Virus record (IMG/VR): IMGVR_UViG_3300032053_000166
Location: 1-42,053 of that record
Direction: 5' to 3' (one strand)
DNA from: a virus
DNA: 42,053 nucleotides
The translations under genes and the position numbers were made by a program. The stretch's first letter is position 1, and every line of letters begins with the position of its first letter. The notes beneath the pieces are model-generated. The model was not told the DNA's origin, searched no databases, and was given only the letters and a program-made list of their open reading frames with translations. Below, one piece after another: positions 8,712 to 39,233 of this stretch.

Positions 8712-8719
8712 ATTGACTT
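8705..8719. promoter_or_regulatory. Palindrome joining two back-to-back -35 boxes
   Basis: AAGTCAAATTGACTT has 7-bp arms around a central A. The left arm holds the -35 of the leftward portal promoter and the right arm the -35 of the rightward terminase promoter. A dimeric regulator bound here would cover both, so it is a good operator candidate. Confidence 0.7.
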
Positions 8720-8741
8720 TAATGTTTTTTAAAATTATAAT
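8713..8741 (+). promoter_or_regulatory. Promoter of the terminase operon
   Basis: TTGACT (8713-8718), 17-nt spacer, TATAAT (8736-8741): a near-perfect sigma70 promoter. Unlike the divergent portal promoter it leaves a short leader with AAAGGAG (8758-8764) before the TTG start at 8772. Confidence 0.85.
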
Positions 8742-8771
8742 CAATTATGATATTCATAAAGGAGTTTTGAT

Positions 8772-9071
8772 TTGAGAAAAGAAACGCCATTCAGCAAAGA
8801 AGAATATAATGGTGATGAACAAAAAATAAATACGAAAGATGTTCAAAAAGAAATTGAGAAATACAAACAGATGCAGAAAACAATCAACAGCAAGGATGTG
8901 TGGGGTAATGTGGTCATATGCTGTTTTGCAATCCTGTGTTTAACAGGTATGGAAACAATGGCATTGTACAAAAACATTGATGGTAAGTATGCAGCCCTAA
9001 TTGCTGTTTTAGTTGGAGGACTGGGCGGTTATAAAATAAAAGATATTTGGCAATTGTTTCAAAAGAAATAA
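8772..9071 (+). CDS. Small membrane protein (99 aa)
   Basis: Starts with TTG, 7 nt after AAAGGAG. The N-terminal half is charged and helical (EEYNGDEQ...EIEKYKQMQ). The second half has two hydrophobic segments (VVICCFAILCLTGMETMAL and ALIAVLVGGLGGY) and a basic tail, so it is probably a two-span inner-membrane protein with both ends on the same side. Two-span phage proteins are often holins or antiholins, but this one is the first gene of the terminase operon, so I leave its role open. Confidence 0.7.
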   Translation: MRKETPFSKEEYNGDEQKINTKDVQKEIEKYKQMQKTINSKDVWGNVVICCFAILCLTGMETMALYKNIDGKYAALIAVLVGGLGGYKIKDIWQLFQKK

Positions 9072-9087
9072 TGACAATTAGCTGACC

Positions 9088-9522
9088 ATGAAAAAAGAAA
9101 AGCAATTATTCAATAAAGCAAAGCAATTATATGTAAATGATGAATTTACACCTGAGAAAATTGAATCAATAATAGATGTCAGTGCAAGGCAAATTTTTAG
9201 ATGGATTAAAAAATACAAATGGGGAGAAGAGAGGATTGCAAAAAAAGAGGAAGCCAAGGAGCAATTTCATAAAGAACTAATAAGAATTGGTGCTGAAGTT
9301 TTTATCGAAAAAGCAATTTTATTACTTGATATTTGCATGGAGAAAGCCAAGTCGGCAGAACCAAGAGGCATAAATGATTGCATGCAGCCTGCGGAAAGTC
9401 TCATGAGGTTTATTGAGGCATTAAAGTATTCAATAGAATTAAAAACAAGAGCAAAAGAAAAAGAAGAGAAAAAGGAAGAAGAGAAAAAATTAAGGATTGT
9501 AGATAATGCAATATGCCGTTAA
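9088..9522 (+). CDS. Terminase small subunit candidate (144 aa)
   Basis: The N-terminal region contains a helix-turn-helix of the type used by small terminases and transposase-like proteins (FTPEKIESIIDVSARQIFRW, about residues 18-38). A mixed helical middle and a highly charged Glu/Lys tail follow. It ends 10 nt inside the large terminase gene. Small terminases bind the packaging site and regulate the motor. The call rests on the HTH, size and position. The ribosome site is weak. Confidence 0.75.
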   Translation: MKKEKQLFNKAKQLYVNDEFTPEKIESIIDVSARQIFRWIKKYKWGEERIAKKEEAKEQFHKELIRIGAEVFIEKAILLLDICMEKAKSAEPRGINDCMQPAESLMRFIEALKYSIELKTRAKEKEEKKEEEKKLRIVDNAICR

Positions 9523-11141
9523 AAGACTTAGAAAAACGAAATCAGGAAGCAGAATCAGAACTGCAAAGCGATGAAGAAAGTATAAATTCCAATCCTAATC
9601 TGCTCGATAAAATCCGTGAAAATCCTATCAAGTTATTTTCATTTCTGGACCCGCCTATAGTATTTTGTGCACAGCTCAAAGAATTATTCTACAATATTTT
9701 CAACAACGAGGGGGACCGATTTTCATTGTTAAAATTTCGTGGTGGTGGTGGAACACTATTGGGCGCGTGCGTTGGAGTTAGTTGTTTCGCGCTGAATGAA
9801 TGGGATATTTATGATGCTGCCGGTTCGCTTGACCAAGCACTCACTGGATTTGAATATGCCTCACGCTTTTTAAATTTACCGCCATTCAATCAAACGGTTG
9901 CAGGTGGTATCACGCTGAAGACCAAAGCAGAAGGAATATTCGGTAATAAATATCTATGCTTTCCTGCATCACCTAAAGCAATTCGTGGCAAGCATCCAAC
10001 ACAAAAATATACAATTGATATTGAGAGGCTTATTGAGGAATGGGAGACATTTGATATAAGCAAGGTAGTGCCAACAAAAGGAAGAGGGGCGCTGCTACTG
10101 ATTGATGAAGAGGCGGAGATTGAAGACAAGGAAATACTGCCAGCATTATGGGGCATTATCAGTAATGCTGAGCCAGGAATAATATTGAGATTGTCCACAG
10201 CTCACAAAGCAGTCGGCTCATTCAAAGAATTAATAGATGATCCGGCAGCGCAAGGATACAAGCATTTTAAGATTGATGCATTTGACACCATCAAAGATAA
10301 GCCAGTCGATTGGAGCGATTATCTGGATTCCTGGGCGCGTGATAATCACAAACAAATGAGCGATACTAAAAAGAAAATGATGATGAATTCGATTAACTCA
10401 TATTGGGGCAAGCGAGACCGGTCTGATTTTCATGGACATATTCAAACGAAAAACATTATCAATGCGCTGTACGAAATGGACAGTATCACATTTGATGTTG
10501 AATTTATGGCAGGCACACAAGCAAGCGAAAATGTGGTGATACCGGGAAACCTGATTGACGAAGCACTGATTGACGAAATACCGGAAGTGCAGGGTGGAAT
10601 AAACGTTATGGAAATTGACTGGGGATTTTCCGGTATGACTGCAATACTGGTTGCTAATTGTTATGGCAACGATGATAAACAATATTTAGATGCAAAAGAA
10701 TTTCATAGGATTAGTCAAGATGTGATTTTTGAATATATTAAATTTGCTATTGGACAATATCAACTCCGGTTGGCATTATGTGATAGTTCGCATAAATTTG
10801 AGAATGATATGCTGAGAAAGTTACTGCCAGTTCAGGAAGTAGTTTTTAGTCAAGAGAAGGAATCAAATTATTCTAAAATGCTGTGGCGTTTTCAAAACCA
10901 CAAGGTTAAAATACCAAAAGCGTTTACCACGTTTATTTTGCAATTGAAGAAACTACATAGAATTAATGGGAAAATTGTTAAACGCGAGGATCATTGCCCG
11001 GACGCTGCAAGTTGCGGTGAATCATTCAATTACGGGAGTATGCAAATGCCGCGCGTGATACCACGAAAAGAACCTGCTCGATATAATCGCTATAGCAGTG
11101 ATTATGAAAATGTCACGCGCAAATTGCGTGAGATGATGTAG
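9513..11141 (+). CDS. terL: Terminase large subunit, packaging ATPase-nuclease (542 aa)
   Basis: Motifs appear in the expected order: P-loop region KFRGGGGT (residues 74-81), Walker B ALLLIDEE (193-200), coupling motif STA (228-230), and an RNase-H-like nuclease with acidic residues D369 (MEIDWG), D424 (LCDSSH) and D493/D497. It packages DNA into the procapsid and cuts it. The P-loop lacks the usual Lys before Thr; Lys74 at the front of the loop may substitute, as in the deviant loop of lambda gpA. The gene ends with TAG just before a hairpin. Length is normal for Mu/T4-type TerL. Confidence 0.9.
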   Translation: MPLKDLEKRNQEAESELQSDEESINSNPNLLDKIRENPIKLFSFLDPPIVFCAQLKELFYNIFNNEGDRFSLLKFRGGGGTLLGACVGVSCFALNEWDIYDAAGSLDQALTGFEYASRFLNLPPFNQTVAGGITLKTKAEGIFGNKYLCFPASPKAIRGKHPTQKYTIDIERLIEEWETFDISKVVPTKGRGALLLIDEEAEIEDKEILPALWGIISNAEPGIILRLSTAHKAVGSFKELIDDPAAQGYKHFKIDAFDTIKDKPVDWSDYLDSWARDNHKQMSDTKKKMMMNSINSYWGKRDRSDFHGHIQTKNIINALYEMDSITFDVEFMAGTQASENVVIPGNLIDEALIDEIPEVQGGINVMEIDWGFSGMTAILVANCYGNDDKQYLDAKEFHRISQDVIFEYIKFAIGQYQLRLALCDSSHKFENDMLRKLLPVQEVVFSQEKESNYSKMLWRFQNHKVKIPKAFTTFILQLKKLHRINGKIVKREDHCPDAASCGESFNYGSMQMPRVIPRKEPARYNRYSSDYENVTRKLREMM

Positions 11142-14818: not shown

Positions 14819-17800
14819 CTAATCTCCTGTATTCAATGCTCGTAGTATTTTTTTAGATACGCCCCTGTCTCTTTTTATGCTGCTAATCAATTCATCAAGA
14901 GTATTCGCCTGCACGTTGATTGTTACTCCGCCAAGATTATTGCTGTATCGGCGATTATCGCTGCGTGAATCAATATCAACGCGCTCCCGTCTTCCGCCCT
15001 CTCCTACAAGAAAACGAGTAGGGCTGTTTACAAATCCATGAAATCCTTGCGCTGCAGGTATTTCCGGCTCGTATTCATTGCCTTTGTATTTGGGTATGCC
15101 GCCTCCGATTAGCCCCACGCTGCTCGCTACATTATCTGTAGCTGCCGCTGCTTCATTTGCTGCATCAATATATTTTTGCCATGCTGCCGGTATATCGGAA
15201 CCCAGTGCTTTTAGCATGTAGGCAAATCCTTTCTCGATTGATTCTTGCATCGTGAGTTGGTCTTTTCCAAGAACTCCATTTTCCACTGCTTGGTCTATTA
15301 ATTTTTGTGTGTTGGCGTCTATCGTAAATCCATATTGCTTTGATGCCTCAACAACGGTTCGCAGGGTTGGAGCCATTGCTTGCAATGCTTGATTTTGTGT
15401 CATTCCTCCGGCAATAAGTTTGTCGTAATTTTTGACTGCATCATTTTGAAACTTTGTAAAATATTTCATTGCATCATTGGCACCGAGTTGACCGGATTTA
15501 AATAGTCCTTTCATTGCCGTATTTTCAGATTCAATAACAGTCAACAGTTCCTTGTTCGCTTCTATCACTTTATGCATCGGCACACCACCCAGTGCGTTCC
15601 ATGCCTCCAGCATTGTGGAACCATTCAAAATCATGGCATCAAAAGTGATTTGCGCAACTTCACGAAGACCGGTCATTTCTGCAGTATATTGCTCCAGCGA
15701 TATTTTGCCAGCGTCCAACGATTGCTTTAGCGCGTCCCCCCATTGTGATATACCAGAGGCTGCTTCACCAAGTGCGGCTTTCACATAGTCAGAAATTTCC
15801 TTTACTTCCAACCCTGCCGCTTTAGTTTCTTGAATCATCTTAATTATGGTTGCATCAATATGGTCACCAACTACATCGGTCATCTGCGCAAAAATAGTTC
15901 CAACACTTTTTGCAAGGTCAGCGGTTGAAATTAACCCGGCTCGTAGTCTGCCCAACTGGTCTATCACCGCTTTGAACGCTTTATCCATCTGTCCCTGATT
16001 GGTTATCTCTCCTACAATCTCTGCAAAATTCTGAGCAATCGCTTTGTCTTTGCCAATCTTTTTGCTGGTCTCCAGTATTTTTTTAGCCAACTCCTCACTC
16101 ACTGAATATCCCAAATCTTTGCCAATTTGTTCTCCTAATTTCTTCCATTCTGGTTTCCCCTTGAACAAACTAATAATTTTCCCAAGTACTGAACCAACGA
16201 CAGAACCGATTGCTTCACCAAATATAGGCATAATAGTTTTACCAAAACTACCCATGTTTTTTGCTAAATCCTTGAACCATGCTGCACCTAAACCACCACC
16301 CATCTTTCCCATCATTCCGGCTAATTTACTTTCGCCGCCGACAAGCGCACTGAAATAACCACCTACTGCGCTAATTGCATCTGCCATAACTGTAGCGATT
16401 GTCTCTCCCCAATCAATAGTATCCTGCGCCAAATCTTCTGTTGTGTTCGATACATCAACCATGCCCTCAACTGCTTTTGTGCTGTTCTCTGTCGCCCCAC
16501 TGCCCCAGATGTCGTAACCTTCAGTTGCGCTTTGTAATCCAGTACCCAACTGCGCCTGTAAATCACTTACTACTTGCAAATTATTTCTATACTCCGGCAT
16601 ATTAGTACCGGTTAATCCGCCGTATTCCGCAACTAATTTTACAAGTGCTGCATCATTGGCCTCAAGTGCTTTAGTATGCTTCAGGATTGCTTCGGCTGCC
16701 GCCTCGTTTGCTTTCTTTACCTCTTCCCCGTATTTTCTTATGGCTTCTGTTCTCTTTTTTGTTTCTTCTTCGGATGTAACCGATACCCCACTTGGCTTGC
16801 TCCCTGTTGCTTGCTTATATTTTTCATAAGGCATTCCCAAATCAGTACCCCATGATTTTGGTTGCGGTTCCTTTCCGCCAAAACTCGCCATCCAATCTCT
16901 CACTGTTTGATATTTTTCATACAGACCTACTAGCTTAAGAACATACCGCTCCAGTACTACAATTCCTGTACCAATAGTCCGCCCAATAAATTCACCAATC
17001 TCTTTCCCAAATGAGACCAGATTGAACTTCCCAATTATTCCTATTAACCAACCAACAGTCTCGCCAAAAGAACGAGACGAACCTTTGGCTTTTTCCATGC
17101 TCTTAGTTGCATCACCAAAGGCTTTTGTGGACGCCATTATTGCATCAGTCATGCCCACTTTGAAATTGTAAACCAATCCGCCAACCGCCATTTGCAATTC
17201 TTTCATTTGTGCTGCGCTTTGTTGCTCTGCTGCTAATTCCTCACGTGCTGTAAATGCTGCAAGGTCATGCCCTTTCGCCAATTCGTTTAATCTATCAGAA
17301 TAGTTTTTTGTCCACTCTGACAGCTCCATTATCACTTTTACACCGCCACCCATCATCACACTGGCAACTATAAATTTGCCCCACCTGGAAATAATCCTGC
17401 TGGCGTATCTGTCCATGTCAACCAATTTACCTATGCCCTGAGAGGCTCCCCTGCTTACTCCCTCACCCATGCCGATACCTGCGACACCCACCTTGTCAAC
17501 CGCAACAACAACTTTCGATAATTCGTTTTCATAGGCAAACAATCCACTTTTTGCGGCATCATAATTTTTTCTCCAATTAGCAACTAATGCGTTTTGCTTG
17601 TTTAATTTATCCTGCAATGCATATTGCGTATTTAATTTTGCTTGCAATGCGTTTGCTGCCGTGACCGCCTGCTGATATGCTGCCGCCATTTCTTTGCCCA
17701 TCTTTGAGGCAGTCAATGTAGCCTTGTCCATGCTGGAATCAATTTTTTTCAGATTGGCATTGACAATTTCAATTTTATTTCCGCTTGCATCAATTACATC

Positions 17801-17830
17801 GAATTTTATCCCGTACGGAATCGTGCTCAT
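14819..17830 (-). CDS. Tape measure protein (1003 aa)
   Basis: The longest gene, encoded right after the tail assembly chaperone frames, as in almost all siphoviruses. The N terminus is a long Ala/Lys helix (about 30-110). Hydrophobic Gly-rich segments follow (WGKFIVASVMMGGGVKVIM, about 148-166; a further Gly/Met-rich stretch about 480-560) that may insert in the host membrane. The rest is helical. The C terminus ends with a basic GGRRERVDIDSRSDNRR patch and a short coiled tail. It sets tail length and leaves the tail during DNA entry. The ribosome site GGAGATATAG precedes the ATG. Confidence 0.92.
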   Translation of the reverse strand: MSTIPYGIKFDVIDASGNKIEIVNANLKKIDSSMDKATLTASKMGKEMAAAYQQAVTAANALQAKLNTQYALQDKLNKQNALVANWRKNYDAAKSGLFAYENELSKVVVAVDKVGVAGIGMGEGVSRGASQGIGKLVDMDRYASRIISRWGKFIVASVMMGGGVKVIMELSEWTKNYSDRLNELAKGHDLAAFTAREELAAEQQSAAQMKELQMAVGGLVYNFKVGMTDAIMASTKAFGDATKSMEKAKGSSRSFGETVGWLIGIIGKFNLVSFGKEIGEFIGRTIGTGIVVLERYVLKLVGLYEKYQTVRDWMASFGGKEPQPKSWGTDLGMPYEKYKQATGSKPSGVSVTSEEETKKRTEAIRKYGEEVKKANEAAAEAILKHTKALEANDAALVKLVAEYGGLTGTNMPEYRNNLQVVSDLQAQLGTGLQSATEGYDIWGSGATENSTKAVEGMVDVSNTTEDLAQDTIDWGETIATVMADAISAVGGYFSALVGGESKLAGMMGKMGGGLGAAWFKDLAKNMGSFGKTIMPIFGEAIGSVVGSVLGKIISLFKGKPEWKKLGEQIGKDLGYSVSEELAKKILETSKKIGKDKAIAQNFAEIVGEITNQGQMDKAFKAVIDQLGRLRAGLISTADLAKSVGTIFAQMTDVVGDHIDATIIKMIQETKAAGLEVKEISDYVKAALGEAASGISQWGDALKQSLDAGKISLEQYTAEMTGLREVAQITFDAMILNGSTMLEAWNALGGVPMHKVIEANKELLTVIESENTAMKGLFKSGQLGANDAMKYFTKFQNDAVKNYDKLIAGGMTQNQALQAMAPTLRTVVEASKQYGFTIDANTQKLIDQAVENGVLGKDQLTMQESIEKGFAYMLKALGSDIPAAWQKYIDAANEAAAATDNVASSVGLIGGGIPKYKGNEYEPEIPAAQGFHGFVNSPTRFLVGEGGRRERVDIDSRSDNRRYSNNLGGVTINVQANTLDELISSIKRDRGVSKKILRALNTGD

Positions 17831-18145
17831 CTATATCTCCAATGCTGCCGATTGTGTTTTTGAATGATGAGTATTCAAAAGATTCATTGCCTCAACAATT
17901 AGATTTTGCCGATGATTAGTCAATTCGATTTCCTCATATTTTCTCATATATGTAACCGCCATCCAGTCAATCGCATAACCACTTCGTATATCAAATCGCA
18001 TAATGGCATTGAATAAATTCAATGTCTCCAAATTGCTTTGCCATAGCTCCACTTTCTCTGTAATCTTATGTGCGATTGCTTTTGCTCCACTGACTTCATA
18101 AACCGTCCTGCCTGCCAGTTTTTTGCGTTGCTTATCATTGGCCAC
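17831..18145 (-). CDS. Tail assembly chaperone, gpT-like part made by -1 frameshift (104 aa from GTG)
   Basis: This frame has a GTG at 18145 with AAGGA only 4 nt upstream. It also lies in the -1 frame of the preceding gene and stays open back to the A9 slip site at 18189-18197, through a 15-codon bridge. The fused product would be 281 residues. That is the lambda G/GT arrangement: the short form and the fused form together load the tape measure for tube assembly. The protein is helical and basic (NDKQRKKLAGR near the start). Independent initiation at GTG is a possible extra route. Confidence 0.8.
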   Translation of the reverse strand: MANDKQRKKLAGRTVYEVSGAKAIAHKITEKVELWQSNLETLNLFNAIMRFDIRSGYAIDWMAVTYMRKYEEIELTNHRQNLIVEAMNLLNTHHSKTQSAALEI

Positions 18146-28420: not shown

Positions 28421-28460
28421 ATAAAAGGGCGAGCGCAAACTACTAAATATGCACCCGCCC
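28421..28460 (-). terminator. Intrinsic terminator after the SMC-like gene
   Basis: On the minus strand GGGCGGGTGC (28460-28451) pairs with GCGCTCGCCC (28436-28427) over 10 bp with two G-U pairs and a 14-nt loop, followed by TTTTAT. It lies between the SMC-like stop and the ribosome site of the next gene, so it probably attenuates the distal recombination genes. Confidence 0.75.
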
Positions 28461-28470
28461 CCGATTTTTG

Positions 28471-29775
28471 CTATTTGATTTCGCCGTCCTCAATCCAGAT
28501 GCCTGCATTTTTTGCGTCTGCTACTTTTTCAATCCAGAGCTGAGCATCGTTGTTTTTGGCAATGCTATTTAGCAATTCAATATTAGATTTATCCAGCAAT
28601 GAACCATCACGTATCAGCATCACTTTTAATTTAGGATTTAGTGCAAGTCCAATACTGATACTCACTTTTAATTTCTCACTATCACTAAGCTGAGCAAAAG
28701 GAATTTCGTTATACAGTACTGCATTTTCTGAAAAAGATAATCCGGTTATTGGAAATTTAGCGTTTTGTAATTGCTCTTTTTTGTTGTGTTCGATTTGTTC
28801 TATCGAAGAAGTAAGGTTGTCTGCCGCTATTGATTTTCTGCCGAGAGCGTTTTGTGCTTCTGCTTTTCTTACAAACAGTTTAATTAGTTCATTCTGTTCC
28901 TGCGCTTTTAGGATTTCTTTAGTAATAGTATTTATTTTAGACTGCCAATCCTCTTGCTTAATTGATGCCTGTAGTGTTTCTATGTCTTTTTGCATTTCCG
29001 GTATTCTCTTTTTCAGTTTATCTTTGTCTGCATGATATTCTTTTGATGCGTTCTCTGTTGCTTTTTCGTATTGCTCTTTTAGTTCTTTAAGTCTATTGTC
29101 GTATTTTTCATCCAGTCGTAAACCAAATATAAAGATGGCGGACAATTTTTCTTTCATGGCTTTTAAGCAGATTATATCTTTCTCGTTCTGTTGCCTGGCA
29201 TCAACTACTGCATCTCTTTGGTTTCGCAATGATTGTATTTCTACATGCTCCCCTTCTTTTCCTGCCGGCATTGCATCATGCTGAGCCTGCAATGATTTCA
29301 GTTCGCGATTAACCAATGTGCGCTCTTCATATAATTCTTTTTTTTCTGTATCAAGTTCATCGAAATTCAGCCCTGTTATTTCTTTGAGGATTCCAACCTG
29401 TTGCTGGTTTTTCATGCGGGCAAATTCAAGCGGGTCAAAGCTGAGATTGCCTATGAGTTTGTCCAGCATCGCCTGTGGAGATGGGTATTTGGCACCATCG
29501 TTGTTTTTGATTTCAAGATAACTGCCCTTCTCTGTCCAGGTTCTAGTTATCACCAGCTCGTCAATCACCACTTTTACGCTCGCTTTTTTCTGCCCCTTTC
29601 TGATAGGCATTTCCGGTATCAGGTCGGCTCCGCCTAAACAATACGCAATAGAATCCAAGACACTTGATTTTCCGGCTCCGTTTTTGCCCTCAATGAACAG
29701 TACATCATCTTTGGGAATAATTTGGATTGCTTTTATTTTCTTGATATTTTCTGATTGTAATTCTATGATTTTCAT
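28471..29775 (-). CDS. SMC/RecF-like ATPase (434 aa)
   Basis: Walker A GKNGAGKS at residues 30-37 after the typical start MKIIELQSENIKKIKAI, a coiled-coil middle (about 150-320), an ABC signature-like LSDSE at 363-367 and a Walker B-like KVMLIRDGSLLD at about 384-395. The overall plan is that of a shortened SbcC/RecF-type ATPase, a family often encoded beside phage recombinases, nucleases and SSBs. The Walker B end is unusual in having Arg-Asp-Gly where Asp-Glu is usual. Likely role: handling DNA ends during recombination-dependent replication. Confidence 0.82.
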   Translation of the reverse strand: MKIIELQSENIKKIKAIQIIPKDDVLFIEGKNGAGKSSVLDSIAYCLGGADLIPEMPIRKGQKKASVKVVIDELVITRTWTEKGSYLEIKNNDGAKYPSPQAMLDKLIGNLSFDPLEFARMKNQQQVGILKEITGLNFDELDTEKKELYEERTLVNRELKSLQAQHDAMPAGKEGEHVEIQSLRNQRDAVVDARQQNEKDIICLKAMKEKLSAIFIFGLRLDEKYDNRLKELKEQYEKATENASKEYHADKDKLKKRIPEMQKDIETLQASIKQEDWQSKINTITKEILKAQEQNELIKLFVRKAEAQNALGRKSIAADNLTSSIEQIEHNKKEQLQNAKFPITGLSFSENAVLYNEIPFAQLSDSEKLKVSISIGLALNPKLKVMLIRDGSLLDKSNIELLNSIAKNNDAQLWIEKVADAKNAGIWIEDGEIK

Positions 29776-32165: not shown

Positions 32166-32332
32166 AATTGCTCCTGTTGATACATTTTTGTTTCTCTTTC
32201 GTAGTCGTGTTGACTTTGTTCTCTGAAACACTTATCACATATTTTTTCTTTGGTTCTTTTGCTTGAAAATCCGAATTCAAATTCTTTACCACAAGTATCA
32301 CAAATATATTTTTTGTATTTTTTCTTATTCAT
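32162..32332 (-). CDS. Small zinc-ribbon protein (56 aa)
   Basis: Begins MNKKKYKKYICDTCGKEFEF and has a second pair CDKC about 22 residues later: a complete CxxC...CxxC ribbon. It overlaps the stop of the upstream gene at its start and the GTG of the next at its end, so it is embedded in the operon. Confidence 0.72.
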   Translation of the reverse strand: MNKKKYKKYICDTCGKEFEFGFSSKRTKEKICDKCFREQSQHDYERETKMYQQEQL

Positions 32333-32585
32333 CTGTCGCCTCCATTTTGATGATGTTTCGGATAGTGCGCAATCTGCCCATTATTACCGCAATGTAATTT
32401 AGTAATTTCATCTTATCATCTTTATTAAATTCTTGGTCAGTCAGGCAGTCATTATAGAGCTTGTCCAGATAGTTAAATTTATTACTCATCAATGCAATCT
32501 CTGTAGCTATTGTCTGTTCAAACACATCTGAAAAGCGAGGCTCGCAATCCAACAGGTCAGGTTCTTTTTGGTCTCTTAGGTTCAT
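32325..32585 (-). CDS. First gene of the recombination operon, hypothetical (86 aa)
   Basis: The start at ATG 32585 (MNLRDQKEPDLLDCEPRFSD) has GGAGG 5 nt upstream; a longer frame would run into the leader hairpin. Helical and acidic, with a C-terminal helix pair (LNYIAVIMGRLRTIRNIIKM). No motif recognised. It follows the structured leader and terminator at 32596-32654, so its translation is the readout of that leader. Confidence 0.65.
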   Translation of the reverse strand: MNLRDQKEPDLLDCEPRFSDVFEQTIATEIALMSNKFNYLDKLYNDCLTDQEFNKDDKMKLLNYIAVIMGRLRTIRNIIKMEATDE

Positions 32586-32595
32586 ACTGTCCTCC

Positions 32596-32654
32596 AAAAT
32601 AAAATAGGGGCATAGGCAAACCATCATGTGTTTTGCTTTTATTTCTATGCCCCT
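32596..32654 (-). terminator. Leader terminator/attenuator of the recombination operon
   Basis: On the minus strand AGGGGCATAG (32654-32645) pairs perfectly with CTATGCCCCT (32615-32606). The 29-nt loop can itself form an inner GCAAAAC/GGTTTGC stem with one mismatch. The stem is followed by ATTTTATTTT and then at once by GGAGG of the first gene. It therefore can stop transcription or hide translation signals. Confidence 0.75.
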
Positions 32655-32660
32655 GACTTT

Positions 32661-32696
32661 CTACTTCCGTTTTTTGAACGGAGATGGGTTGCACAT
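32661..32696 (-). CDS. Leader ORF of 11 codons (MCNPSPFKKRK)
   Basis: ATG 32696-32694 stands 5 nt behind a perfect GGAGG and the frame ends at TAG, just upstream of the attenuator hairpin. Its codons overlap a 6-bp hairpin (TCCGTT/AACGGA). Position and ribosome site suggest a leader peptide whose translation sets the fold of the leader. Too short to be proven by sequence alone. Confidence 0.5.
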   Translation of the reverse strand: MCNPSPFKKRK

Positions 32697-32731
32697 AGGC
32701 ACCTCCAAAAGAAAGTATTGCACAGGCACGC

Positions 32732-32840
32732 CCTCTACTACATGCCTGCATTGAGACCTGAGAATAAGGGGAATCTGTAGAGGAAGATTTATTTGGATTG
32801 TTTTGATTTTGTCTTTTTAAATTTTGTTTTTCAGGTCTCA
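32732..32840 (-). ncRNA. Structured leader RNA, copy 2 (recombination operon)
   Basis: Minus-strand stems are interleaved. TGAGACCTGA (32840-32831) matches TCAGGTCTCA (32761-32752), and CCTCTAC (32783-32777) matches GTAGAGG (32738-32732), giving an a-b-a'-b' pseudoknot or switch order. An A-rich linker contains AAAATCAAAACAAT (32810-32797), 13 of 14 identical to a motif in the replication leader. It begins about 14 nt after the predicted transcription start. Confidence 0.6.
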
Positions 32841-32860
32841 TAATTTCTATTCTCAAGTTA

Positions 32861-32889
32861 AGTATAAGCTATTTGGTTTTATTTGTCAA
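32861..32889 (-). promoter_or_regulatory. Promoter of the recombination operon
   Basis: Minus-strand TTGACA (32889-32884), 17-nt spacer, TATACT (32866-32861): near-consensus sigma70. The -35 overlaps the last codons of the preceding frame. About 270 nt of leader separate it from the first full gene. Confidence 0.85.
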
Positions 32890-33025
32890 GAGCAAAAGTC
32901 TCGTTTTTGCCCTTTTTAGAAGAAATATTTTTGAACGGATAAGTCTTGATAATTTTGCCTTTGTGCTGCACGGTTATGTCATTTTCGCCTATATGTAAAT
33001 GCTCACAAAATCTTGATTTCTTTAG
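32879..33025 (-). pseudogene. Continuation of the small zinc-finger frame beyond an amber codon
   Basis: After the TAG at 33028-33026 the same frame stays open for 48 codons to TAA 32881-32879. It contains a C-x-H-x-H cluster (FCEHLHIG) that would complete the CPIC pair upstream into a CCCH-type site. It may be a decayed C-terminal half, or be made by amber readthrough (the stop is followed by CTA). Confidence 0.4.
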
Positions 33026-33124
33026 CTAATTAATTGGCAATGGTTCGCGATAATAAAATGCGGTGGGAATAATATTGTTCTCTCTGCAGATGGGGCATTC
33101 AAGGATTTTGTATTTTGGTTTCAT
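33026..33124 (-). CDS. Small CPIC protein, possibly truncated (32 aa)
   Basis: Begins MKPKYKILECPICRENN; its ATG overlaps the stop of the DUF5131 gene (ATGA), and the frame ends at TAG. A lone CxxC pair cannot complete a zinc site by itself. The frame continues in phase beyond the amber with further Cys/His residues (see 32879-33025), which suggests the gene was once 80 residues long or is read through. Confidence 0.5.
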   Translation of the reverse strand: MKPKYKILECPICRENNIIPTAFYYREPLPIN

Positions 33125-33786
33125 TTCAATTCCTCCGGGTAATTCCAGTTATTTTTATCCCATTTCAAAAATACAGGAATATTGTTTTCTCTGGCAACTT
33201 CAATAATCGCACGATAATAATCAGGTGATGCAGGTGGTTTTTTATTTAGCCCGCCGATGATAATCCAAGAAAATATAGGCAATAGTTTCAACTCTGATTT
33301 TTCAATAGGATTTAAAAGTGGTTCAAAAGAAACAAATAATGCCCCTTTGGTTTTCAGAAACCTCATTGGTTCCATCATTGTTTGTGCTGATACCACTTTA
33401 AATCTTTTATCTATGCTCACACCAAGCCAACGATTGTTGAAACCAAATACAGACGGCATCCAGCAAGAATAAATAGCAGGATTTTTTGTGAGAAATAAAA
33501 ACCAGTTCTGACTTTGTTTTGTTATTTCAATAATTTCATGCAATCCGCCTGCTTGGCTTATTACTTCAGGGCAAAACAAATCTATGGTGCTACCTACAAA
33601 TATTTTCTGTCCTTTCTTTTTGAATTTCAGCATTTGATTTATTTCGTCAGTGTCTAATCTGATTTCTGGATTCCACTTGAAACGCTGATACATAGCACGA
33701 GCATAGCAATAGGGGCAGCGCATGGGGCATAGTCCTTTAACTGGATTAAAAGAATAATCACACCATTCAATATTCGTTTTTTGCAT
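33121..33786 (-). CDS. DUF5131 (phage Gp37/Gp68-like) protein, radical-SAM-like (221 aa)
   Basis: Starts MQKTNIEWCDYSFNPVKGL, the typical opening of the DUF5131 family, followed by CPMRCPYCYARAMYQR (about 20-35). The CxxxCxYC spacing resembles radical-SAM Fe-S ligands. Later family segments are present: FVGSTIDLFCPE (about 62-73), LFLTKNP (about 96-102), RWLGVSID (about 118), SFEPLL (about 148) and IIIGGLN (about 170). Common in phages; the reaction is unknown. Ribosome site GAGGTG. Confidence 0.85.
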   Translation of the reverse strand: MQKTNIEWCDYSFNPVKGLCPMRCPYCYARAMYQRFKWNPEIRLDTDEINQMLKFKKKGQKIFVGSTIDLFCPEVISQAGGLHEIIEITKQSQNWFLFLTKNPAIYSCWMPSVFGFNNRWLGVSIDKRFKVVSAQTMMEPMRFLKTKGALFVSFEPLLNPIEKSELKLLPIFSWIIIGGLNKKPPASPDYYRAIIEVARENNIPVFLKWDKNNWNYPEELK

Positions 33787-33789
33787 TAT

Positions 33790-33894
33790 TCACCTCAAAC
33801 AATTTTGTTTGTTGCTCATTTTGTTTAATGCTTCAAAATCAAAAGAACTGTGAATGTAAAGCTTGTATTCTTTATCACATTTTTTGCATTTTAT
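33790..33894 (-). CDS. Possible small zinc-ribbon frame without a standard start codon
   Basis: Between two genes an open frame reads KCKKCDKEYKLYIH and continues to TGA 33792-33790. It looks like a real CxxC protein of 33 residues. No ATG, GTG or TTG is in frame; the codon at the expected place, 4 nt after GGAGG, is ATA (33894-33892). Either ATA is used, or a point change destroyed the start. A short out-of-frame ATG gives only four codons. Confidence 0.35.
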   Translation of the reverse strand: MKCKKCDKEYKLYIHSSFDFEALNKMSNKQNCLR

Positions 33895-34130
33895 AAATCC
33901 TCCAAATTAAGATATGGTTTCCATTTTTCAATAAGCGTTTCCAATCCTTTCAGTTCATAATCCAAATTGTCAATGAGGTCTGCTATCGCTGATTCTTTTG
34001 TGTCATGAGAAGCTCCAATATTTAATGCTTTCGCTAAAACAAAATTTACTTTTCCTTCATGATTTTCAATACTGATAATCAGCGCTTTCTTGAGTTTGTA
34101 TTTGCCTATTTGTCTTATCATTTTTTTCAT
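33891..34130 (-). CDS. HicB-like/small regulatory protein candidate (79 aa)
   Basis: ATG 34130 is preferred because AGAGGATAAG lies directly upstream; longer starts overlap the previous gene. The protein (MKKMIRQIGKYKLKKALIIS...) has a strand-strand-helix beginning and a DTKESAIADLIDNLDYELKG helix (about 44-63) that resembles the HicB antitoxin-like RNase-H fold in outline only. No HicA partner is visible. Function open. Confidence 0.5.
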   Translation of the reverse strand: MKKMIRQIGKYKLKKALIISIENHEGKVNFVLAKALNIGASHDTKESAIADLIDNLDYELKGLETLIEKWKPYLNLEDL

Positions 34131-34158
34131 CTTATCCTCTAAGTATAATAATTGTTGG

Positions 34159-34383
34159 TCATGGTTTTGCCTCATATGGTTTCACGATTTTCTTGATTTT
34201 GAGTTTGCCTAAAGCACCATCACTGCGGGAACCAATTACCTTGAAATAATTATTTCCTATACTATTGATGATAGAATTAATAGGAAAATAACCAAATAGC
34301 AAAAGAGATATTTCAAACGATGGTCGAAAAAAATACCATATCCGCAAGGGCAAGGTCTTAAGATACCATAGAAAATGTTTCAT
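34159..34383 (-). CDS. Small membrane-associated protein (74 aa)
   Basis: Starts MKHFLWYLKTLPLRIWYFFR with GGAGG 7 nt upstream, overlapping the previous stop. A hydrophobic segment (FEISLLLFGYFPI) follows the aromatic/basic N terminus, then a basic tail. Probably inner-membrane-associated; no family recognised. Confidence 0.6.
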   Translation of the reverse strand: MKHFLWYLKTLPLRIWYFFRPSFEISLLLFGYFPINSIINSIGNNYFKVIGSRSDGALGKLKIKKIVKPYEAKP

Positions 34384-34562
34384 GGCTTTACCTCCGGCTT
34401 TTGTTTTTCTTCCTCCGTAAAACAATAACAGTATAAAAATTCATGTACTCTTGATTCATCCTCTGCAACCCATTTTAAATGCTTAATTAATTCGCTCAAT
34501 GTCCAGCGGTCTATTTTTTTTAGTTTCATGTTTCTGATATAATTTTCTAAATTAAGTCTCAT
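34380..34562 (-). CDS. Small hypothetical protein (60 aa)
   Basis: The ATG at 34562 overlaps the previous TGA (ATGA); a longer frame upstream is just a shadow of the neighbouring gene. Begins MRLNLENYIRNMKLKKIDRW, with a helical WTLSELIKHLKWVAED segment and a CYCF pair. Unknown function. Confidence 0.6.
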   Translation of the reverse strand: MRLNLENYIRNMKLKKIDRWTLSELIKHLKWVAEDESRVHEFLYCYCFTEEEKQKPEVKP

Positions 34563-34921
34563 TTCTGCACCGCCTTCTCCACTTTCAGTATCGGTTTTTC
34601 TTCGCCTGCCAGAAACACCATCTGCACTTCGTAGATTCCGTCCCTTCCTGCAATTTCGTTCATATTTATTGCAGTCACGGTTTTTAGTGGTAGGCATTTT
34701 CCTTGAACAGCAATAGGGCAACTCTCTGGTACAGGTATGATTACCGTCTCGCATTTCTGCGCTTTCACTTGTTCATTGTGCTGCTGAATATAACCTGCAA
34801 CACGAACCACCATGATGATTATTATGATGATTCCTATCGTGTTCATTACCGCATATATTTTTTCAAATATAGTTGCCGCAAGGTCCTTAAATCTAACAAT
34901 GAACTGATAATTCTTTTTCAT
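34559..34921 (-). CDS. Single-span membrane protein (120 aa)
   Basis: The start at ATG 34921 (MKKNYQFIVRFKDLAATIFE) follows AGGAG. One very hydrophobic span with seven consecutive Ile (about residues 28-42) separates a basic N terminus from an outer domain with two Cys (KCETVIIPVPESCPIAVQGK) that may be disulfide-bonded in the periplasm. Unknown role; it lies in the replication operon. Confidence 0.65.
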   Translation of the reverse strand: MKKNYQFIVRFKDLAATIFEKIYAVMNTIGIIIIIIMVVRVAGYIQQHNEQVKAQKCETVIIPVPESCPIAVQGKCLPLKTVTAINMNEIAGRDGIYEVQMVFLAGEEKPILKVEKAVQK

Positions 34922-34934
34922 CTTGATTCTCCTT

Positions 34935-35126
34935 TTAATTTTTTGAAGCATTCGTTAATTGTTTAAGTGCCTGCTTTACCTTTGGAACGCATTTAGTACA
35001 ATACTGCTTTTCGTTTATCTCTTCCCATCCGTACATTCTCATCACCGTTTTATAATCCTCCTCAATAAAACAACTCAAACAAACAGTGCAGCAATCACAC
35101 TGGATCAGGATTATCTTTTTTATCAT
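34935..35126 (-). CDS. Small Cys-rich protein (63 aa)
   Basis: Begins MIKKIILIQCDCCTVCLSCF, then has CTKC near residue 43: seven cysteines, enough for a zinc ribbon or knuckle. GGAGATCAAGG precedes the ATG, which lies inside the end of the upstream gene. Unknown function. Confidence 0.65.
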   Translation of the reverse strand: MIKKIILIQCDCCTVCLSCFIEEDYKTVMRMYGWEEINEKQYCTKCVPKVKQALKQLTNASKN

Positions 35127-35706
35127 CCTTGATCTCCATATCTTTCCAGGTTAATTTTCTAAACACACCAGGGCATCCAGTTGAAAACCGCACCTTGAAT
35201 TTCTGTCCACAAACTTTTCCTTCATCAGTTCTTCCATCACCGTAAGCGCCGAACATCTGGCCACAGACAGGGCAGACAACCAAGCCGGATGTGCATTCCG
35301 GGAAGAGCAAATCAATAGCGTAACGATAATAAGAACGATAAACATCCTCCGATTCGTATTCTCTATTAATCGGATCGAGCGCCTGATCCGCCATGTATAG
35401 TGCGTTGAATCCTGATCCGCCTTTTTCAAAATAAAGATTTGGTTTTTCTTCTCTGCCAAATATTTTATTCATCTCTTTTAATTTTTTTACTTCTCCGGAG
35501 CAGCTGTTCAATGACCAGTACATTTTGATTGCGCTCATAAGTAAAGTAGCATGATCCATCTTATGAAACGGAGTCTCTCCCCATTTCAATTGCTTTTTTT
35601 TGTTTCGCATAATATTAACTCTCTCATCGGTTTTTAGATGTTCTTTCCAAACAAGATTAATTTCACATCTGCAGTTTGGCATCCAGGCATATTTATTGTT
35701 AGACAT
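35095..35706 (-). CDS. Hypothetical protein with CPVC zinc knuckle (203 aa)
   Basis: The N-terminal region is helical with ETPFHKMDHATLLMSAIKMYW (about 44-64). The C-terminal part has CTSGLVVCPVCGQMFG (about 144-159) plus further Cys (VCGQKF, GCPG) that could form a zinc site. It follows the helicase loader with an 8-nt overlap, so it probably acts in replication. No known family. Confidence 0.6.
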   Translation of the reverse strand: MSNNKYAWMPNCRCEINLVWKEHLKTDERVNIMRNKKKQLKWGETPFHKMDHATLLMSAIKMYWSLNSCSGEVKKLKEMNKIFGREEKPNLYFEKGGSGFNALYMADQALDPINREYESEDVYRSYYRYAIDLLFPECTSGLVVCPVCGQMFGAYGDGRTDEGKVCGQKFKVRFSTGCPGVFRKLTWKDMEIKDDKKDNPDPV

Positions 35707-36502
35707 TATTTATCCTGCGATCGTCTTCTGATATTTCAATTATTTTACACATCTCATTAATCCTGGAAATAATTCTTGAATCAATACCGGTTGCCTCTAA
35801 CTGTGAAATTGATTTATTACTTGTGAATACTGTGTGCATATCTTTATTGTAGCGATAATCCACGATATGAAACAATGATTGATTTGCAAAGTCTGTCATT
35901 TTTTGTGTAGCTATATCATCCAGGAAAAGAGTTTGTATCTCGCATATTGGTTCAAGTATCTCTGATATTGATTCATTGATTGCGATTTTATGCTTCAATG
36001 CATTAAGTAATTTATCGCTGGAAGTCAAGCAAACTTTTTGTGTTGGGATGTAAATACTTCCATCATCCGCGGTAAATGCTTTATCCTTTTCAATAATTAT
36101 TTTCATCGCAGTTGCGCAAAAATAAGTTTTACCACTGCCCACGTTGCCATAGATATAAGCAGATTTTCCTTTTATGATTTCTCTAAAAGAAGAAAATAAA
36201 CGCTCTGGAATATTTAACGATTTGCAATCAAAATAATGTTCTTCAACGCCATACTGATATAATCTTTCCTTTAATCCGTCTCCGCTTAAATTATTTTTAT
36301 TCCAATCATCGGTATAGATTTTTTTCTTCTGTCTCTCGATAGATTCCAGAAAGGAAATCACAAATGGGGTCTTCCGGTCTGCATCTGAGAATTCTCCAAA
36401 AGCATATTTTTTTATAGCCGCCAGGTAAAGAATACTCTCTCTTGATTTTTTTGCTTTGTATTCCAGGATTTTAAACATCCCATCTTTTGTTATTGCTTGC
36501 AT
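35699..36502 (-). CDS. DnaC/IstB-like helicase loader ATPase (267 aa)
   Basis: Walker A GNVGSGKT at 119-126, Walker B LFLDDI at 192-197, a sensor-like FTSNKSI at about 229 and a terminal SRIISRINEMCKIIEI arginine-finger region: the DnaC/DnaI AAA+ plan. The N-terminal 100 residues would bind the host replicative helicase. It lies 2 nt after the O-like initiator gene, the lambda O-P arrangement, so it should load the host helicase at the phage origin. Confidence 0.88.
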   Translation of the reverse strand: MQAITKDGMFKILEYKAKKSRESILYLAAIKKYAFGEFSDADRKTPFVISFLESIERQKKKIYTDDWNKNNLSGDGLKERLYQYGVEEHYFDCKSLNIPERLFSSFREIIKGKSAYIYGNVGSGKTYFCATAMKIIIEKDKAFTADDGSIYIPTQKVCLTSSDKLLNALKHKIAINESISEILEPICEIQTLFLDDIATQKMTDFANQSLFHIVDYRYNKDMHTVFTSNKSISQLEATGIDSRIISRINEMCKIIEISEDDRRINNV

Positions 36503-36504
36503 TA

Positions 36505-37356
36505 TTAATCCTTCTTTGGTTTTTCGGGTATCGGATATTTGGTTGTTGCTGGGTCATAATTGGATGGTCTGATGTACGCATATTTTCCGGGTTCGTATTC
36601 TATATGAGGTGATGATTGATTTGTTTTGTTGTCATTATAAGCTGTCAAGTCATCAGTCCAACGTTCCTGATTAATGAACGTCACCGGATTAAGAATATAA
36701 CCCTTCTTCCATCTGTCTGTTAATTTTGCTTTTTCTATGAAAGCCAGAATTTCATCAATATGATTCTGGCATTGATGAGTTTTGAATGTCTTAATAGCTT
36801 TTTGTTTGGATTCCTTTTTGGGGTATGCCATCCAGAATTGCGAGAAGCAATTTGGATGATCTATTTCTATTGGTTCCCTTTCTATTGGTTTATTATATAT
36901 TGTATGTGCAGCTTTCTGCACCCCTAATTTACACGAAGTTGCACCCCTCTTTGACATCTTTCTGCACCCTGCAACTTTCTGCACCCCTGCAACTTTCCGC
37001 ACCCCTTCACTCTGAAACATAGTCCAGGTGTCATAGTGCTTATTAAACAGGAAGGTATTGGGTGCAGCTTCCTGCACCCTCTCGTAATAAATTATATGCA
37101 TCTGCTTTAATTCCTTTATGGTCATCCAGCAGGTTCTCTCTGATTTATTAGAAAACTCCATGAATTGATTTATTGAAATAGTATCCTCTGGTTTTGAATA
37201 TCCCCAGCCATAATGAATAATACAATCTATCATGCTTCTTTGTGCCCCATTTAATCCAGCCATTGCAAGCGCAATAAATACATCTGTCGCGATTCTTCTA
37301 TGCCCCTCTTCTTTTTGTGGATTAATTTTAGAATCTTTCTTCCATGGATTTTCCAT
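36505..37356 (-). CDS. Replication initiator, lambda O-like (283 aa)
   Basis: The N-terminal winged-helix domain of phage O proteins is recognisable: RRIATDVFIALAMAGLNGAQ (20-39), IIHYGWGYSKPEDTISINQF (46-65) and RTCWMTIKELKQMHIIYYE (74-92). The middle (about 120-150) has the repeats GVRKVAG/GVQKVAG encoded by the iterons. The C-terminal FWMAYPKKESKQKAIKTFK (about 173-191) is the segment seen in many O-type initiators. It should bind the iterons and recruit the loader encoded next. Confidence 0.85.
   Translation of the reverse strand: MENPWKKDSKINPQKEEGHRRIATDVFIALAMAGLNGAQRSMIDCIIHYGWGYSKPEDTISINQFMEFSNKSERTCWMTIKELKQMHIIYYERVQEAAPNTFLFNKHYDTWTMFQSEGVRKVAGVQKVAGCRKMSKRGATSCKLGVQKAAHTIYNKPIEREPIEIDHPNCFSQFWMAYPKKESKQKAIKTFKTHQCQNHIDEILAFIEKAKLTDRWKKGYILNPVTFINQERWTDDLTAYNDNKTNQSSPHIEYEPGKYAYIRPSNYDPATTKYPIPEKPKKD
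36865..37080. repeat. Replication origin: 18-bp iterons inside the initiator gene
   Basis: Six copies of an 18-bp unit ending in the core TGCACCCC (or CCGCACCCC): 36908-36925, 36931-36948, tandem 36953-36970, 36971-36988, 36989-37006, and 37063-37080. The last lies in an inverted pair GGGTGCA/TGCACCC (37060-37079). Next to them is an AT-rich stretch (about 36888-36905) and a 15-bp-period repeat of TTCTATTGGTT (36865, 36880). Iterons plus AT-rich DNA within the O gene is the lambda origin design. Confidence 0.82.
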
Positions 37357-37370
37357 CGAACCTTCTTTTG

Positions 37371-37415
37371 AAAAAATAAAAAAAGGGACACCCTGCCTGA
37401 GAAGCTGAATGTCCC
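37371..37415 (-). terminator. Leader terminator of the replication operon
   Basis: On the minus strand GGGACA (37415-37410) pairs with TGTCCC (37390-37385), followed by seven T, A and six T. It is placed between the promoter and the O-like gene, 15 nt before its start, so it must be passed for replication genes to be made. Confidence 0.8.
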
Positions 37416-37488
37416 CAGCAATGGGGCAGACACTGGATATGAATATCCCATTGCTTTGATTTTAATGCGTTTGATTTTTCCAGTGTCT
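37413..37488 (-). ncRNA. Structured leader RNA, copy 1 (replication operon)
   Basis: Minus-strand AGACACTGGA (37488-37479) matches TCCAGTGTCT (37437-37428). AGCAATGGG (37455-37447) matches CCCATTGCT (37425-37417). The order is a-b-a'-b', hence a pseudoknot or two exclusive folds. CCCCA/TGGGG (37426-37413) forms a third hairpin that uses the same G-run as the terminator stem, so it can act as antiterminator. The A-rich linker includes AAAATCAAAGCAAT (37463-37450). Confidence 0.65.
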
Positions 37489-37501
37489 GTATCATATAAT
37501 A

Positions 37502-37529
37502 AGTATAATCATTTTAAATTAAAAGTCAA
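37502..37529 (-). promoter_or_regulatory. Promoter of the replication operon
   Basis: Minus-strand TTGACT (37529-37524), 16-nt spacer, TATACT (37507-37502). The -35 overlaps the stop codon of the methyltransferase gene. The predicted start (about 37495) is 7 nt before the first leader stem. Confidence 0.8.
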
Positions 37530-38080
37530 GGGGTGAATAGGTTAGTTTCTATTTGGTCGCCCCATACATCCCAATCTATCCGCCTTTTTCTTGCAAATAT
37601 ATCTATTCTGGGAGCAGGAGACATTTCTTCAACTAACTTATAAAACACATCTGGCTTAGTGCTATGCTTTCCTGCGGAGTTGAAACACTTTATCCAATTC
37701 AATTTGCCAATATTCAAAAACTTTTGCATAGGCTTACCATAAAAACCTAACAGGCAAAATTCGGATGCAAAAGTATAACCCATGGCTGGACATATCCCTG
37801 ACGGTTTTATCATTGGCAGAACGAGATGAAACCTAACGTCCCAAGAATCTAAAACATCAAAGCAGTGCCTTAACATTTTGTTTGTAGTCCAGCAGTAAAC
37901 ATGACAACCCTTATTTGTGATGGTGCCTATTGGTATGTTTTTTATTTCATCTATTGTCATTGTTTTATATGGCAATTTTGACGCCATATTTCTTCTACTC
38001 AAACAGTATTTCTTCAATCCAATATTCCAGGGCGGGTCTACTACAATAGTATTATATTTTTTATCAGGAAACGGAACCAT
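37526..38080 (-). CDS. MT-A70-type N6-adenine DNA methyltransferase (184 aa)
   Basis: The catalytic DPPW motif is at residues 15-18 after the usual YNTIVVDPPWN opening, followed by PYKTMTIDEIKNIP (about 37-50), a VYCWTTNKMLRHCFDVLDSW segment (about 61-80) and CLLGFYGKP (about 109). The family (MT-A70, Dam-like phage enzymes) methylates adenine N6 using SAM. Likely roles are protection from host restriction or marking phage DNA. Start behind GAGGTGAAGG. Last gene of the early small-gene cluster. Confidence 0.88.
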   Translation of the reverse strand: MVPFPDKKYNTIVVDPPWNIGLKKYCLSRRNMASKLPYKTMTIDEIKNIPIGTITNKGCHVYCWTTNKMLRHCFDVLDSWDVRFHLVLPMIKPSGICPAMGYTFASEFCLLGFYGKPMQKFLNIGKLNWIKCFNSAGKHSTKPDVFYKLVEEMSPAPRIDIFARKRRIDWDVWGDQIETNLFTP

Positions 38081-38951: not shown

Positions 38952-39233
38952 TTATTGCGCTAAAATGTTTTGCATAAACGATAATCCAGGAATTGGTTTG
39001 ATTTTGCCATCAATCAAATCCCAGATTTTTTGAATTATTTCTTTGTTTTCAATACTCTCAAAAATTGCTAACACTTTTTCTCTTTTCACGGTCTGCCAAT
39101 ATTTTTTATCCGGGTTCCATTTCCAGCCCGCCTGTTTGATTATATTGCGTTTTTCAATCTCTGCGAAATCCAATCTCGCAGAATAGGTCTGTTCCTCGTA
39201 GTTAAAATTTATATTTATTTTTTTCTCTGTCAT
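38952..39233 (-). CDS. DUF5710-like early protein (93 aa)
   Basis: ATG 39233 follows AGGAG; an ATG 30 nt upstream sits only 3 nt after a TATAAT. The segment RLDFAEIEKRNIIKQAGWKWNPDKKYWQT (about 20-48) resembles the F-x-E-K-x-x-x-K-x-G-x-x-W-x-x-x-x-K-x-W pattern of DUF5710-type domains. The C-terminal half is helical. First gene of the leftward early cluster. Confidence 0.6.
   Translation of the reverse strand: MTEKKININFNYEEQTYSARLDFAEIEKRNIIKQAGWKWNPDKKYWQTVKREKVLAIFESIENKEIIQKIWDLIDGKIKPIPGLSFMQNILAQ

Follow-up and report, generated by a model that had tools for sequence, protein, structure and literature searches.

Organization of the locus

We analysed the virus record IMGVR_UViG_3300032053_000166 over its full length of 42,053 bases, which we refer to as the window and in which the majority of genes lie on the minus strand. 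A direct repeat common to the two record ends (window positions 47 and 41973, an offset of 41,926, and 127 bases long if it reaches the end) suggests that the genome is circular or complete, though it is classed as linear. Two operons on the same strand, with replication and recombination genes, respectively, are each preceded by a leader region with the potential to form an elaborate RNA fold. The surrounding features are as follows.

37526-38080: MT-A70 methyltransferase-like gene preceding promoter 1, with a TGA stop codon
36505..37356 (-): first gene of operon 1, encoding a replication initiator O-like protein; a DnaC-like helicase loader gene is next
32325..32585 (-): first gene of operon 2, 86 amino acids, no function assigned, starting with GGAGGA-ATG at 32585; genes for a PD-(D/E)XK nuclease and a Sak4-like recombinase come after it
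28427..28460 (-): strong intergenic hairpin of operon 2 with a TTTT tail only, immediately ahead of a ribosome-binding site

A gene for a DUF5131 or radical-SAM-like phage protein (33121-33786, minus strand) is positioned between the two leaders. Next to it, the minus-strand frame 32879-33124, which begins MKPKYKILECPICRENN, stays open through one in-frame TAG (33028-33026) until a TAA at 32879. This frame is a broken or read-through gene, given that TAG acts as a normal stop in the rest of the phage; a recoded TAG was ruled out, as TAG terminates 10 of 50 genes.

Anatomy of the two leaders

Leader 1 lies between the methyltransferase-like gene and operon 1 and consists of the following elements.

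37502..37529 (-): promoter 1, TTGACT-16-TATACT, with the -35 overlapping the TGA of gene 37526-38080
37479..37489 (-): stem A, 5' strand, CAGACACTGGA
37438..37478 (-): A-rich loop of 41 nt, 51% A, with a 14-nt motif (37450-37463) inside
37447..37455 (-): crossing segment B, AGCAATGGG
37427..37437 (-): stem A, 3' strand, TCCAGTGTCTG
37413..37426 (-): hairpin C, CCCC-ATTGCT-GGGG, containing the partner of segment B
37384..37416 (-): terminator 1, a stem of -17.6 kcal/mol and then a long T tract

The position of the -10 element would place the start of leader 1 at about 37495, and stem A begins at about +7 (37489). Segment B, within the A-rich loop, is complementary over nine bases to CCCATTGCT (37417-37425), directly 3' of stem A. 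The resulting 9-bp crossing stem, which has an energy of -13.7 kcal/mol as a duplex, is incompatible with hairpin C and leaves available to terminator 1 the GGGG that the 5' arm of the terminator has in common with hairpin C. The entire loop of hairpin C could also kiss AGCAAT. At equilibrium, as calculated by folding programs that handle structures without pseudoknots, terminator 1 reaches -17.6 kcal/mol versus -6.7 kcal/mol for hairpin C and -8.9 kcal/mol for an extended hairpin C. The terminator is followed by a ribosome-binding site and then by the ATG at 37356.

Leader 2 contains the same series of parts and an additional short open reading frame.

32861..32889 (-): promoter 2, TTGACA-17-TATACT
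32831..32840 (-): stem A, 5' strand, TGAGACCTGA
32762..32830 (-): A-rich loop of 69 nt, 49% A, with a related 14-nt motif (32797-32810) inside
32777..32783 (-): crossing segment B, CCTCTAC, 7 bp
32752..32761 (-): stem A, 3' strand, TCAGGTCTCA
32723..32748 (-): hairpin C, CAGGCATG-TAGTAGAGGG-CGTGCCTG
32661..32696 (-): 11-codon frame encoding MCNPSPFKKRK, preceded by GGAGG and situated between leader 2 and terminator 2
32606..32654 (-): terminator-like hairpin 2, a 10-bp stem with an A-rich loop and then ATTTTATTTT

Stem A begins here at about +15 (32840). The partner of segment B is the loop of hairpin C, GTAGAGG (32732-32738), and the crossing pairing would thus be a loop-loop kissing contact. 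About 70 nt separate hairpin C from terminator 2, with no overlap between them. The 11-codon frame may be translated. In the terminator-like hairpin (32596-32654 with its tail), the A-rich loop AAATAAAA is complementary to its own tail TTTTATTT. Pairing of the 5' segment with the stretch preceding the 3' strand of stem A is perhaps real in leader 2; in leader 1 the corresponding pairing was at the level of chance in shuffles.

These elements agree in part with a first-pass annotation of the window, which had described a -10 TATACT at both promoters (here TTGACT/TATACT at 37529-37502 and TTGACA/TATACT at 32889-32861, minus strand), a stem strand close to each start and an A-rich linker in both leaders. 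Some of its claims needed adjustment. The -35 was said to overlap the end of the preceding frame, which is true of the stop codon at promoter 1, whereas at promoter 2 the -35 falls within the last codons of the TAG-interrupted frame 32879-33124. A terminator was said to stand before each first gene; a terminator-like hairpin is indeed present in both leaders, but the U tract of terminator 2 is poor and interrupted (AUUUUAUUUU). The downstream hairpin that it had named as a terminator (28421-28460, here 28427-28460) is likewise followed by just UUUU.

The shared layout compared with background

Both leaders follow one layout, in which a promoter is followed by stem A of 10-11 bp, an A-rich loop, a crossing pairing, hairpin C, a terminator-like hairpin and the first gene. 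The element spans 77 nt in leader 1 and 118 nt in leader 2, and the sequences of the A, B and C stems are unlike between the leaders while the layout of the pairings is kept. Promoters 1 and 2 rank among the best sigma70-like matches in the window, and a promoter consensus scan gave a number of sites no higher than in shuffles; the two promoters are exceptional by rank and not by count.

With stem A held fixed, a crossing complement as long as the 9 bp of leader 1 was reached in 4/3000 shuffles and one as long as the 7 bp of leader 2 in 43/3000, in agreement with the first-pass description of interleaved stems. When each leader was shuffled with its dinucleotides preserved, some element of the layout arose in 11/1500 cases; the observed layout score was reached in 2/1500 for leader 1 and 0/1500 for leader 2. 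Among arbitrary pieces of the window, 31/2264 contained some element of the layout and a few equalled the score of leader 1; taken singly, either leader is thus about a one-in-a-hundred event. By multiplication, the joint occurrence at both TATACT promoters would have a probability of about 1e-4 to 1e-5.

We also scanned the window and 36 related loci, 1.14 Mb with both strands counted, with a layout descriptor that demands a promoter, a stem A no shorter than 8 bp, a hairpin C not more than 8 nt away and a crossing complement of 6 or longer. Six of the 196 promoter-like sites matched, with leaders 1 and 2 ranked first and second; the descriptor was devised after these leaders had been seen, and its statistics flatter them. 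Taken together, the layout is credible as a pair, and the support for each leader singly is moderate.

Relationship between the leaders and searches for relatives

The first-pass annotation regarded the leaders as copies of one RNA family. The shared topology stands up against chance, but the case for descent is weak. Their best local alignment scored 40 against 23.5 +/- 4.4 for shuffled sequences, a score reached by 5/2000 shuffles (p ~0.0025); the same score was equalled by 1.7-2.1% of window pieces, some of which overlap the leaders themselves. The 14-nt motif exists as described, but its value as a family signature is not supported. Two further one-mismatch copies lie within genes (29726-29739 and 38992-39005), and a 13/14 match was common to 7/400 composition-matched pairs of pieces. 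The motif is also differently placed relative to segment B, as it contains the start of B in leader 1 and lies 13 nt upstream of B in leader 2.

A single-sequence covariance model of leader 2 found itself as the top match in the window, the hairpin of terminator 2 second (E 0.024) and leader 1 third (E 0.045, 16.3 bits), and the reciprocal model of leader 1 found leader 2 at E 1.4. The leader 2 model gave up to 14.2 bits in unrelated sequence, including 6 kb of phage HK022, so a homologue scoring about 16 bits would be indistinguishable from noise. MAFFT left the stems of the two leaders unaligned. Derivation of both from one sequence is thus weakly supported; common descent is possible, and convergence on one layout equally so.

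Further matches beside phage promoters, the lack of which the first-pass annotation had counted against its proposal, did not appear in the following searches. Neither leader matched any Rfam family above the gathering threshold, and an exact pattern built from the sequence common to both had no match in IMG/VR. A blastn search of the leaders and the whole region against 50,697 phages returned short chance-level matches, none of them convincing. IMG/VR scans with the O protein, DnaC, a 100-aa ORF, Sak4, the portal protein and a 542-aa protein of the window returned relatives of Sak4 and O alone, all of them distant. Among full-length Sak4 proteins, the nearest (57-62% identity) come from viruses and MAGs labelled Omnitrophota, Elusimicrobia, Planctomycetota, Nitrospirae and others, and the layout was absent from their loci. 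No such leader was seen in the 36 loci with relatives of two window proteins or in GTDB genomes beside genes related to Sak4. Searches by pattern, by protein neighbour and by model yielded neither a third example nor, in the collections covered, a homologue from which covariation across genomes could be read. IMG/VR, GTDB and the 50,697 phages contained no close relative of the phage, although near-identical records may lie outside the scope of these searches.

Candidate functions of the leaders

A regulatory role is supported by the same order of parts directly behind the two TATACT promoters, by crossing pairings that exceed those of shuffles, by a pairing layout that is kept although the stem sequences differ, and by the presence in both operons of a terminator-like hairpin just ahead of the first ribosome-binding site. 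We favour, with confidence somewhat short of even, the reading that the leaders are cis-acting 5' RNAs, most likely setting how often polymerase reads through the adjacent terminator. On this model the RNA would fold co-transcriptionally, with stem A knotted to the sequence immediately 3' of it, and the fold would be complete before polymerase arrives at the terminator-like hairpin ahead of the operon. It would then set read-through of that terminator and perhaps of later ones such as 28427-28460, whether through contact with polymerase as for put RNAs, through a bound protein or through local refolding. The promoter-like sites, the layout, the terminator-like hairpins and the gene order are observed, whereas we infer fold formation, termination at the hairpins and the effect of the leader on read-through. 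The part common to both leaders would be made and foldable before the terminator, which fits an RNA that acts on polymerase or on a bound factor. The polymerase-acting version taken alone is nevertheless unlikely. Its most specific form, a new class of phage RNA antiterminators in which a pseudoknotted or kissing RNA presents an A-rich strand to the elongating polymerase, requires no phage protein, is independent of HK022 put in sequence and fold, and lets the terminators of two operons be passed, is decidedly improbable.

Each of the alternatives accounts for part of these data. The leaders may be small-RNA genes that chiefly yield free RNAs, about 110 nt long from leader 1 and about 250 nt long from leader 2, with the operons receiving leak-through. 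Good promoter matches, the strength and long T tract of terminator 1 and equilibrium energies that favour terminator formation all suit this idea. We nonetheless regard it as unlikely, given that each unit lies directly ahead of an operon and supplies that operon's best promoter match, that leader 2 holds a ribosome-binding site and a short ORF, and that complementarity for a leader 1:leader 2 duplex is not above shuffles. Attenuation by known logic, in which a ligand, a protein or a ribosome on the 11-codon ORF toggles between the terminator and an alternative fold, we judge rather unlikely. Potential switches can be drawn for both leaders: hairpin C and the 5' arm of terminator 1 have GGGG in common, folding intermediates of leader 2 (220-235 nt) allow the beginning of the short ORF to pair with the 5' arm of the terminator, and the stem A region of leader 2 could instead pair over 8 bp with the 5' end (10/3000 shuffles). 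These switches would differ between the leaders and would leave the common A, B and C parts unexplained, leader 1 has no alternative fold near its terminator in energy, and Rfam provides no match. Because the energies of leader 1 favour the terminator and hairpin C of leader 2 does not overlap one, a single either/or attenuator fails for both, and a switch with the terminator common to both leaders is unlikely.

Stems at the extreme 5' end commonly stabilise mRNA, and both operons begin with stems. A role limited to stabilising the mRNA or tuning translation, with termination unaffected, would still leave the crossing pairings and the terminator-like hairpins unexplained, and the first operon start codon is more than 100 nt distant; we consider such a role improbable. 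The remaining explanation, that unrelated look-alike hairpins happen to follow two strong promoters of an A-rich genome, draws on the near-background similarity of the leaders, on the occurrence of similar layouts in about 1% of background pieces and on the 14.2 bits obtained with the leader 2 model on 6 kb of HK022 versus 16.3 bits on leader 1. Set against it is the layout at both TATACT promoters, ranked first and second of the 196 promoter-like sites, and we find coincidence very improbable. Small RNAs, attenuators and mRNA stabilisers together outweigh the put-like version.

Comparison with known antiterminators

To our knowledge, RNA-only antitermination is understood in detail in few phages, mainly HK022 and related ones. 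HK022 has two put RNAs, putL and putR, each about 70 nt long with two stem-loops; they have sequence in common and act without protein by binding the zinc-binding domain of the polymerase beta' subunit, and putL follows its promoter closely while putR is found about 270 nt downstream (PMC9378689). As in HK022, there are two copies per phage, the leaders are placed like putL and the RNA would be expected to form before downstream terminators. Unlike put, for which PMC9378689 mentions no pseudoknot, the leaders have crossing pairings of 9 and 7 bp. They also differ from put in their large A-rich loop, in having little sequence in common and in lying on one strand before replication and recombination operons, whereas put sites lie behind the divergent PL and PR. 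The likeness to put, for which the first-pass annotation had itself noted other sequences and topology, extends to position and logic, but not to fold and apparently not to sequence, and as an analogy of that kind it should not lead to the leaders being classed as put. The putL promoter was not among the promoter-like sites located in the HK022 region, which therefore provides no control of the layout descriptor.

Lambda nut sites are RNA elements within phage operon leaders, upstream of terminators. The leaders resemble nut in being leader RNAs of phage operons with terminators downstream; family scans of about 30 window genes revealed no N- or Q-like antitermination protein, and no boxA was seen by eye in the leaders. 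With attenuators and riboswitches they share the succession of structured leader, intrinsic-terminator-like hairpin and gene, but they belong to no Rfam family, leader 1 lacks a strong antiterminator fold and the shared part is clear of terminator 2. A second, differently folded RNA antiterminator in an unrelated phage, if true, would suggest that control of polymerase by nascent RNA arose more than once. Should the leaders be attenuators instead, two operons of a single phage that carry one and the same pseudoknot layout would still make a clean test object.

Other features of the window

The clearest plus-strand operon (8713-11141) has a TTGACT/TATAAT promoter and encodes a DNA-binding-like protein and the 542-aa protein, which had no match in Pfam, PHROGs, NCBIfam or PDB and is possibly a terminase. 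On the minus strand, the TAG that ends a 104-aa gene (17831-18145) abuts, in frame, the ATG of a 1003-aa gene (14819-17830). Stop read-through is possible at this junction (14819-18145), and the two genes are perhaps a tape-measure chaperone pair.
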